This document shows positions 2,029 to 13,807 of a stretch of DNA of 64,000 nucleotides, piece by piece. The notes beneath the pieces are model-generated. The model saw nothing but the letters and a program-made list of their open reading frames with translations, did not search any database and was not told the DNA's origin. Position numbers and translations under genes: made by a program. Location of the stretch: NCBI RefSeq assembly GCF_001894865.1, contig NZ_BCXA01000017.1:1-64000 (forward strand), given 5' to 3'. The first letter of the stretch is position 1; each line of letters starts with the position of its first letter. This DNA is from Rhodococcus maanshanensis NBRC 100610. Its GTDB lineage: Bacteria > Actinomycetota > Actinomycetes > Mycobacteriales > Mycobacteriaceae.

Positions 2029-2112
2029 GTGACCGGACTTGGGATTGCGCTCGTGGCTCGACGCCACGTCGATCTCAAGCGTGTCTGTAGCTGTCTGCCC
2101 TTGCCTGCGTAG
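2029..2112 (+). CDS. Cysteine-containing leader peptide of the sulfate reduction operon
   Basis: A 27-codon ORF starting with GTG and ending TAG, too short for ordinary gene finders. Its C-terminal half reads RRHVDLKRVCSCLPLPA. The RRHVDL-x-RV core followed by cysteines is the hallmark of putative leader peptides that precede sulfur genes in many actinobacteria. The start sits 7 bases after a -10-like hexamer, so the message is probably leaderless. Two cysteine codons (CSC) near the end would make ribosomes stall or slow when cysteinyl-tRNA is low, changing folding of the 121-base stretch before sirA. Polycysteine leaderless short ORFs acting as cysteine-responsive attenuators are known in mycobacteria; the mechanism here is inferred. 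Confidence 0.8.
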   Translation: MTGLGIALVARRHVDLKRVCSCLPLPA

Positions 2113-12152: not shown

Positions 12153-13199
12153 TTACTTGGTGGCGTTGTCGTAGATCGTGGCGATGGAGCCGGTCTCCTT
12201 CTTGAACAGGCTCTCGTCGACCGCCTTCCAGCCGCCGAGGTCCGCGATCGTCCACAGCTTCGCGGGCGCCGGGAAGTCGGCCGCGAACTCGGCAGCGACA
12301 CCGGGATCGACCGGGCGGAATCCGGCCTCGGCCCACAGCTTCTGGCCCTCGGTGGTGAAGAGGAAGTCCTTGAACGCGTTGGCCTTCTCGAGGTTCTTGC
12401 TGTTGTTGATCACGGCGACCGGGTTCTCGATCTTGAACGTGACCGGCGGCGTGACGTGCTCGACCGGGTCCCCGTTGCGCTCGGCGAACAGGGCCTCGTT
12501 CTCGTAGCTCAGCAACACGTCGCCGGTGCCCTGCAGGAACGTCTCGGTGGCCTCGCGGCCGGACTTCGGCTGGACCTTCACGTGCTCGGTGACGAGCGTG
12601 TTCAGGTAGTCGAGTCCGGCCTGCGGGTTCTTACCGCCGTCGCTCTTGGCGGCGTACGGAGCCAACAGGTTCCACTTCGCCGAGCCCGAGCTGAACGGGT
12701 TGGGCGTGACCACCTCGAGGCCGGGCTGGAGCAGGTCGTCCCAGTCCTTGATGCCCTTCGGGTTGCCCTCGCGGACCACCACCGTCACGACGGAGCCGAA
12801 GGGGATCCCGTTGTAGGCGTCCTTGTTCCAGTCCTCGCTCACCAGGCCCGCGTCGACGAGGCGGGTGATGTCCGGCTCGACGGAGAAGTTGACGAAGTCG
12901 GCCTGGGCGCCGTCCTTGACCTTGCGGGACTGGTCACCCGAGGCGCCGTAGGACTGCTGGAACTCGACGTTCTTGCCCTCGTCGGTGTCATTGAAGGCCG
13001 GGATCAGCTTGTCGTAGCCGGGCTTGGGGACCGCGTAGGCAAACAGGCTGATGGTGCCCCCGCTGCCGTCGCTCGTGCCGCCCTCGGCGCCGACGGTGTC
13101 GCTCGAACCGCCGCTGCACGCGGTCAGTGCGACCGATGCGGCGGTGACGGCGGCGGCCAGCAGGAGGCCGGAACGGGTGATACGAGAGCGCGCGCTCAT
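12153..13199 (-). CDS. subI: Sulfate-binding lipoprotein
   Basis: 348 residues. A lipoprotein signal peptide with lipobox LTAC (Cys28) anchors it outside the membrane, followed by a linker of Gly/Ser and a type II periplasmic binding fold typical of Sbp/CysP. It captures sulfate and delivers it to CysTW. The ribosome site GAAAGG lies about 8 bases before ATG 13199. First structural gene of the transporter operon, after a leader of about 270 bases that encodes a cysteine-ending peptide. Confidence 0.94.
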   Translation of the reverse strand: MSARSRITRSGLLLAAAVTAASVALTACSGGSSDTVGAEGGTSDGSGGTISLFAYAVPKPGYDKLIPAFNDTDEGKNVEFQQSYGASGDQSRKVKDGAQADFVNFSVEPDITRLVDAGLVSEDWNKDAYNGIPFGSVVTVVVREGNPKGIKDWDDLLQPGLEVVTPNPFSSGSAKWNLLAPYAAKSDGGKNPQAGLDYLNTLVTEHVKVQPKSGREATETFLQGTGDVLLSYENEALFAERNGDPVEHVTPPVTFKIENPVAVINNSKNLEKANAFKDFLFTTEGQKLWAEAGFRPVDPGVAAEFAADFPAPAKLWTIADLGGWKAVDESLFKKETGSIATIYDNATK

Positions 13200-13245
13200 G
13201 TGAATTGCCTTTCACAGGTGTGCCACGAGGGCAAGGAGGTGGTGT

Positions 13246-13293
13246 CCGGTCCTCAGACCGCAGCGCGGGACCACTGCCGGCGACGGCGCGGTC
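13246..13293 (-). promoter_or_regulatory. Possible alternative hairpins in the subI leader
   Basis: Read on the minus strand, GACCGC within 13286-13293 can pair with GCGGTC (13256-13261), and the same GCGGTC can instead pair with GGACCG (13247-13252). Mutually exclusive pairing of this kind, between a leader peptide and its structural gene, is what an attenuator would need. The stems are short and this is inference. Confidence 0.35.
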
Positions 13294-13375
13294 TCACGGT
13301 GACACAGAATGGGGGTTGTCGCCCGCTACGTGGGGCGGACCGGCCGCGGCTCGATGGCTCGCGCGGCTACCGCAA

Positions 13376-13465
13376 TCAACAACAGTCGATATCGGCGACC
13401 GCAAGCATGCCGACAGCGATCAACGCCAGTTCATGGCGGACCTGGTGCACGGCTGTTGCAGACAC
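13376..13465 (-). CDS. Leader peptide ending Cys-Cys, upstream of subI
   Basis: A 29-codon ORF starting GTG at 13465 and ending with two cysteine codons directly before TGA (AVADIDCC-stop). The hexamer TACATT (13473-13478) lies exactly 7 bases upstream, so transcription probably starts on the GTG itself and the message is leaderless. Cysteine codons at the very end place a stalled ribosome next to the subI leader when cysteine is short. Its sequence does not resemble the leader before sirA, apart from the position of the cysteines, which argues for convergent design. Polycysteine leaderless ORFs of this kind control sulfur operons in mycobacteria; here the role is inferred. Confidence 0.78.
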   Translation of the reverse strand: MSATAVHQVRHELALIAVGMLAVADIDCC

Positions 13466-13472
13466 GCGCACG

Positions 13473-13502
13473 AATGTAGCAGAGCGCTCGGCCCGGATCG
13501 AA
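13473..13502 (-). promoter_or_regulatory. Promoter of the subI leader transcript
   Basis: On the minus strand, TACATT (13478-13473) is a good TANNNT -10 box, with TTCGAT at 13502-13497 as a possible -35 at 18-base spacing. The -10 is followed by 7 bases and the GTG of the leader peptide. Confidence 0.6.
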
Positions 13503-13523
13503 CCGGAGCCGAGCACCGTTCCA

Positions 13524-13601
13524 CTACCTGGTCAGCAGCCAGCCGATCAGGACGAGGAGGATCAGCGCGATCAGCGCAAGGGTGACGCGGGAGCGGGGCA
13601 T
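13524..13601 (-). CDS. 25-residue single-membrane-segment peptide
   Basis: Encodes MPRSRVTLALIALILLVLIGW and ends LLTR: three basic residues on each side of one hydrophobic helix. Its ATG overlaps the stop of the 68-residue gene before it (ATGA at 13600-13603 region), a strong sign of real translation by coupling. M. tuberculosis has a tiny annotated gene at this position between subI and the trehalase. It may form a membrane complex with its partner; the function is unknown. Confidence 0.6.
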   Translation of the reverse strand: MPRSRVTLALIALILLVLIGWLLTR

Positions 13602-13807
13602 CAGCGGGCACCTTCCTCGGTTGCGACGGTCGCGGCCGAGTCCCGGCCGAGCAGCACGAAAATCCTGGCGAGCAGCAGATCGGCTCCGGTGGCGATCCCG
13701 ATCGCGAGCGGCATCATCACCGCCATCACGAGGATCAGCTGCGGAATGAAGGGCAGCCCGATCACCCAGAGCTCGAGTCCGTCCCACCAGCTGGCAATCT
13801 GCGTCAC
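13601..13807 (-). CDS. Small conserved membrane protein
   Basis: 68 residues with one long or two short hydrophobic segments (about residues 14-52) and a polar tail. It starts with GTG at 13807, preceded by TAGGCT at 6 bases, so the transcript is likely leaderless. The promoter lies between this gene and the divergent GH15 trehalase. It probably matches the small Rv2401-type protein at the same place in M. tuberculosis. Coupled to the 25-residue peptide. Function unknown. Confidence 0.65.
   Translation of the reverse strand: MTQIASWWDGLELWVIGLPFIPQLILVMAVMMPLAIGIATGADLLLARIFVLLGRDSAATVATEEGAR

Follow-up and report, generated by a model that had tools for sequence, protein, structure and literature searches.

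The subI locus and its leader

The window, as we call the whole stretch of 64,000 nucleotides that was analysed, contains two short leader reading frames, one in front of a subI-like gene and one that we call the sirA leader (Table 1). Permease-like reading frames and an ABC ATPase follow the subI-like gene. The host genome comprises 5.67 Mb, and among 58 named SubI loci the closest SubI was that of Rhodococcus oryzae (96%).

Table 1. Positions of the leaders, their elements and the neighbouring genes in the window
Feature	Position	Strand	Basis or remark
sirA leader (Ms4527A family)	2029..2112	+	NF042936; sirA name taken from the original prediction
Hairpin in sirA leader, GTGGC-TCGAC-GCCAC	2053-2067	+	
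ABC ATPase, in the ORF after the permease-like ORFs	11142-9439	-	Name inferred
Permease-like ORFs after subI	12301-11231, 11234-10428	-	Names inferred
subI-like solute-binding protein gene, presumed regulated gene	12153..13199	-	PF13531; name inferred
Leader-subI spacer, 176 nt, with likely subI ribosome-binding site GAAAGG	13200..13375	-	C 0.39, G 0.31; 176 bases from leader to subI, ATG at 13199
Leader ORF, 29 codons and TGA, predicted leaderless, Ms4533A family Cys-rich leader peptide	13376..13465	-	Sequence, NF042937, homologues
Terminal Cys codons TGT TGT	13379..13384 (13384-13382, 13381-13379)	-	Then TGA 13378-13376
Hairpin H1 in leader, CGCCA-TGAAC-TGGCG, 5 bp, 5-nt loop	13424..13438	-	Codons 10-14
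Predicted -10 element TACATT	13473..13478	-	7 nt (CGTGCGC) before leader GTG; similar spacing in relatives

The subI leader encodes the peptide VSATAVHQVRHELALIAVGMLAVADIDCC, with a GTG start at 13465 on the minus strand. An ORF of 29 codons on this strand, seven bases behind TACATT and closing with TGT TGT TGA before subI, was what the original prediction had described, and the sequence reads exactly so. It had further held that such a Cys-Cys ending is unlikely to arise by chance, which the counts bear out: five leaderless-like ORFs of 8-60 codons (ATG or GTG, 6-8 nt behind TANNNT) are present in the window, only this one ends in Cys-Cys, and none of the 271 found in 40 copies of the window from a first-order Markov model does. 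The transcript is predicted to start at the leader GTG. In the 176 leaders collected the -10 element lay 7 nt (132 leaders), 6 nt (42) or 8 nt (2) before the start; the counting script required TANNNT at 5-9 nt before a start and gave preference to 7 nt if several fitted. A promoter scan with the sigma-70 consensus gave no match. Further upstream on the minus strand, two small hydrophobic ORFs of 25 and 68 amino acids (13524-13601 and 13601-13807) overlap via TGATG, and the pair ends 45 nt ahead of the leader -10 element; peptides similar to the 68-residue one were also seen upstream of subI in three other loci (L033, L156, L177).

Comparison with profiles assigned the subI leader to NCBIfam NF042937 ("Ms4533A family Cys-rich leader peptide"), with 53.3 bits at a curated cut-off of 31 and a match spanning leader residues 1-29 and model positions 1-30 of 30. 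At E<=10 no other leader profile matched, including NF042936 (Ms4527A), the profile of the sirA leader. By its sequence, the subI leader is an ordinary member of this already named family: it matches over the full length, its start is predicted to be leaderless, a sulfate-binding gene comes next, and nothing in it argues against membership. The Ms4533A leader itself presumably lies directly before the sulfate-binding gene MSMEG_4533. Pfam searches at E<=10 gave no match for the two window leaders or for two relatives, and the two Rfam matches were both far below the gathering scores. The names Ms4533A, Ms5788A and Ms4527A did not occur for leaders in the literature searched, which leaves out most subscription papers, although the gene MSMEG_4533 does appear there; RHVDLC was likewise not found in that literature.

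The sirA leader reached 47 bits against NF042936 (cut-off 45); its matches to NF042934 and NF042933 stayed below the cut-offs and NF042937 was not matched. Neither of the two leaders is new as a family. A profile of subI leaders searched against the own genome gave no match at the sirA leader at E<=10, and the coding sequence for RRHVDL occurs once in the window, at 2059-2075 (+) inside the sirA leader, so that the predicted absence of this motif from the subI leader is confirmed. The prediction that the window holds two different cysteine leaders also stands, as they fall into NF042937 and NF042936 and have no detectable sequence relation; that they converged on the same design does not follow, and the two may have lost the traces of a common origin.

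Leaders in relatives

As the original prediction expected, relatives keep the ORF: a leader was present in 54 of the 58 named SubI loci, and the four without one all belong to Solirubrobacteraceae. With a profile built from 31 leaders, 270 of the 301 genomes searched in the family had a match at E<=1, many of the matches being weak and unchecked. A wider profile, applied to 397 genomes of the order, matched 43 at E<=1e-4, and a single one of these (G339) lies outside the family. The set of leaders used below comprises 176, with 113 distinct peptides and 137 cores that are distinct at the DNA level; two weak profile matches in the own genome (L061, L062) are not leaders and were left out of the counts. 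The peptide profile served to fetch 90 loci, chosen by hand from the list of matches and mostly its strongest places, and each of their 94 leaders has subI downstream. The same holds for all 176 leaders; for 80 of them SubI itself had been used to retrieve the locus. The leaders are spread over about 20 genus codes of the family, and where subI genes lie in tandem each copy has its own leader (L092-L095, L003, L009, L010). In five of these seven tandem loci a leader with a Cys-Arg ending is paired with one that ends in two or more Cys.

Not every subI gene has such a leader. Among 36 SubI loci scanned, 17 had no leaderless ORF with a Cys near the end and three more had only unrelated-looking ORFs (L287, L293, L299). 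One of the 17 (L283) does carry the leader behind a Shine-Dalgarno (SD)-like start that is described below, and the genome of another (L168) holds a second subI with a leader (L179). In five loci (L152, L153, L154, L156, L177) the roughly 650 nt upstream of subI hold no recognisable cysteine leader, possibly a loss. The match outside the family, G339, belongs to another family of the order; its ORF (L236, about 897-1004) ends in ..RLALMAVHILAVADIDCR with one TGT and keeps the peptide core, its ATG stands behind the SD-like GGGAGAGG and lacks the -10 spacing, and H1 is incomplete. It reads as a leadered version of the same leader.

The most constant feature of the leaders is the first terminal Cys codon, here called C0, which is TGT in all 137 distinct cores. 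Cys codons in 662 matched gene stretches of the same loci were TGT in 105 and TGC in 286 cases. Later codons of the terminal run were also mostly TGT (63, with 13 TGC), other Cys codons of the cores mostly TGC (21, with 4 TGT). The same partition was seen in 15 further leaders, 14 of them of the mycobacterial type, most of them drifted and several lacking the core or H2: 30 of 32 terminal Cys codons were TGT, and 17 of 19 other Cys codons in the same ORFs were TGC. UGU thus looks like a rule for the presumed regulatory Cys codon; sirA leaders are laxer (74 TGT, 34 TGC). The terminal run comprises one Cys in 71 cores, two in 54, three in six and four in six, so that contiguous Cys codons as in the window leader are found in 66 of the 137, and C0 is followed by Arg, Cys or both, with Arg in the 71 single-Cys cores. 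The family name speaks of Cys-richness, yet these 71 distinct relatives end in a run of just one Cys.

The peptide in front of the cysteines is conserved as well. V-5, D-3 and C0 are invariant in the 137 cores, and a constant 28 codons separate start and C0 in 135 of them. On 3000 random pairs, pN/pS was 0.17 (pS 0.55) for codons -13 to -9 and -6 to -4, compared with 0.79 at the N-terminal codons and 0.85 at codons -8 and -7. These ratios indicate that LALIAVG and AVA are under purifying selection. The original prediction had proposed conservation of the terminal cysteines against drift in the rest of the ORF. The first of these codons is indeed kept throughout but the pair is not, and much of the remaining peptide shows conservation instead of drift. 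Only in a Mycobacterium-like genus did we find what had been expected, a retained Cys-Cys with a drifting remainder. The label of this genus rests on PPE numbers: two of its genomes have 41 and 42, two others 3 and 5, and eight genomes from other genera between 0 and 3. Some subI leaders of the mycobacterial type are only 18-20 residues long (L271, L274, L275, L276, L279) and keep the leaderless start and an HCCR ending.

Hairpins and other cysteine leaders

RNAalifold, run on 89 distinct cores, predicted a stem over codons 10-14 (CGCCA-N5-TGGCG), termed H1, and a second stem, H2, around the Cys codon. With the GTG taken as +1, H1 covers +28 to +42 of the transcript. It is intact in 130 of the 137 cores, compared with 25.9 +- 4.3 expected when the peptide is held and codons are redrawn by gene usage and 8.0 when the third-base composition of the leaders is used; the sequences are related and hence not independent trials, and kinship inflates all such counts. 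Across the nine pairs of the predicted structure 98.6% of the alignment cells can pair (shuffled 96.0%, slid 20 to 63%). Double-sided changes occur in 12 cells, in ten of which the closing pair has changed from CG to GC. Since a slide by three columns also gives many double changes (27, with a covariation score of 0.165, compared with 12 and 0.221 for the true structure), covariation alone is weak evidence. Among nine long mycobacterial-type leaders taken as drifted, one of which (L281) retains most of the core, seven have H1 with at least four pairs at +28, compared with 5.2% in other registers. One leader has an altered stem, CGCCG-N5-CGGCG (L284), and two keep H1 despite two codons gained downstream (L238, L239).

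H2 (GAYR-N5-TGTY) is paired in 137 of 137 cores, with 36 expected. We nevertheless do not claim it, because the peptide pattern D-[IV]-x-C-[RC] already accounts for most of its pairs and short leaders that lack H2 have TGT all the same; the UGU codon rule thereby removes the main independent evidence for this stem. In the window a terminator-like stem, GCGGTCG..CGACTGT followed by TGTTGATTGC, spans the first Cys codon within the leader ORF (13382-13402, minus strand).

Hairpins comparable to H1 are predicted in cysA2-type and sirA leaders. In sirA leaders a hairpin of 5 bp with a 5-nt loop at +25 is intact in 25 of 28 distinct stretches (null 7.9), and in a stricter set of 26 leaders with 16 distinct 15-mers it is intact in 15 (null 4.7). 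Ms5788A-type leaders have one at +39, the best register scanned, in 22 of 22 distinct sequences (null 4.6), after six of 30 loci without a leaderless leader were dropped from the sample. The families Ms5788A (NF042933) and Ms4527A (NF042936) thus resemble the subI leader in this hairpin, though at other positions, and also in a start that is leaderless by sequence, late Cys codons and sulfur genes downstream; they differ in having RR.VDL and several Cys, whereas the subI leader has an RHxLALIAVG core and as few as one. The genome holds a third cysteine leader, leaderless by sequence, before a rhodanese gene (VQTSQELMLTRRRTVDLCRLGGCCCTCC; L300, about 96-179, contig C61), which scored 38.2 bits against NF042933, under the cut-off of 45. 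A search of the own genome with a DNA pattern for triple-Cys leaders was uninformative, with 192 matches compared with 212 in the reversed control; 30 of the places were inspected.

Leaders of this kind have precedents. Shell et al. (2015) describe small ORFs before cysA2, Rv0485 and nirA in mycobacteria, the one before cysA2 with a cysteine cluster. Cysteine-dependent translation of leaderless small ORFs regulates downstream genes in sibling leaders of M. smegmatis, according to PMC9031893 and PMC13236596, which cite Canestrari et al. 2020 for cysteine-responsive translation. The polycysteine leaderless attenuator of the Canestrari type has contiguous Cys codons near the stop, as does the window leader with TGT TGT. 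The Mycobacterium cys leaders of Seliverstov et al. 2005 (PMC1262725) are similar to the subI leader in having Cys runs near the stop and no conserved terminator, but are named for the cys operon and cbs, not subI; Rho is suggested for them there, weakly.

Possible mechanism of regulation

Taken together, the subI leader, as a member of the Ms4533A family, very probably acts as an attenuator that responds to cysteine, a response that we infer from family and anatomy. Transcription would start at the GTG, and a 70S ribosome would translate the leader at once. With ample Cys-tRNA the ribosome would pass the UGU codon or codons and leave, and subI expression would be shut down in the spacer. With cysteine short, it would pause at UGU, aided by the nascent LALIAVG..AVAD chain, and subI-cysTWA would be expressed. 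One Cys codon could suffice because the nascent chain, as we propose, helps the pause. The +28 hairpin may hold the RNA polymerase until the first ribosome has loaded, which is speculative. Two observations count against an attenuator: a single Cys codon, as in the 71 cores, would be few for a classical one, and some SubI genes have no recognisable leader.

For the output step, we prefer Rho-dependent termination in the exposed C-rich spacer, a serious possibility just short of probable, over unmasking of the subI ribosome-binding site, which we consider doubtful. An intrinsic terminator of the trp or ilv type is not indicated, with T runs of five or more in only 12 of 143 spacers, and the sole terminator-like match in a scan of 12900-13800 sits within the leader ORF. 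The spacers contain C at 0.38 and G at 0.28, and C exceeds G in 133 of 143, compared with 58 of 143 upstream control stretches, which are not 5' UTRs; this fits Rho weakly, C-richness being a weak sign. TnaC, an arrest leader, senses tryptophan. The TnaC type of arrest leader with Rho similarly has a single key codon, a conserved nascent chain and a rut-like spacer, a likeness by working mode only.

Unmasking would correspond to the translational attenuation proposed for Ms5788A: a masking structure would cover the subI ribosome-binding site, and stalling of a ribosome at Cys would open it. This is a rather unlikely mechanism for the subI leader, even though PMC9031893 and PMC13236596 report it for sibling M. 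smegmatis leaders. In one group of 17 sequences RNAalifold predicts that leader bases preceding H1 pair with the subI ribosome-binding site; in nine mycobacterial-type sequences it gives a stem in the spacer, and the five group alignments have no spacer structure in common. With the footprint of a stalled ribosome blocked, the predicted accessibility of the ribosome-binding site, a crude measure, shifted by more than 0.1 upwards in 11 and downwards in nine of 143 leaders. The group of 17 gave one shift up and three down on stalling and three up and two down with the leader covered, the nine mycobacterial-type leaders one up and none down. The unmasking version therefore finds no general support, as the change was unsystematic in the 143 leaders.

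The nascent chain might also do more than assist. If LALIAVG..AVAD in the exit tunnel stalled the ribosome at a single Cys, the leader would be an arrest peptide sensing cysteine or another thiol, a possible reading that we nevertheless hold to be somewhat improbable. Selection on the core at the amino acid level, the nearly fixed distance from start to Cys and the frequency of single-Cys cores all favour it, and so does the G339 leader, in which core and single Cys persist in the absence of H1 and behind an SD-like start. In addition, all 14 mycobacterial-type leaders, in most of which the core has drifted, contain two or more Cys codons, although this apparent trade-off between core and Cys number is confounded because the drifted cases all come from one genus. 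The core is not needed everywhere, since the leaders of 18-20 residues without it still end in CCR. It is quite unlikely that H1 is instead a DNA operator palindrome for a repressor and that the conservation of the ORF partly reflects such a site: H1 forms a perfect inverted repeat around a loop that is not conserved, near +35, but the stem sequences differ among the three leader families, U-G pairs and two-sided pair changes occur, and the selection on the peptide lies partly outside H1. We find it hardly credible that the ORF arose by chance and has no function, or that it encodes a stable small protein that works in trans. A conserved hydrophobic peptide can be a protein, but N-terminal codons that evolve almost freely would be unusual for a working one; nothing favours chance, and the spread of the leader over many genera, before subI wherever it was fetched, together with the lack of Cys-Cys endings in the Markov copies, speaks against it.

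Returning to the cysteine-responsive attenuator, the comparisons raise the questions how one Cys codon can suffice, why UGU is used for the regulatory Cys when UGC prevails among the other cysteines of the same ORFs, and why hairpins stand at set places. A single explanation, which we offer as a conjecture that is more probably wrong than right, would be that the three cysteine-leader families share a coding hairpin of 5 bp with a 5-nt loop, kept by codon choice and often at +28 despite drift of the peptide, and that it pauses the polymerase long enough for a first 70S ribosome to load at the bare 5' end, so that a single UGU with a conserved nascent chain can sense cysteine. In a leaderless attenuator the ribosome has little time to catch the RNA polymerase, and a pause hairpin, if true, would be a simple answer to this problem. 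The details of its conservation make the subI leader a good test case.
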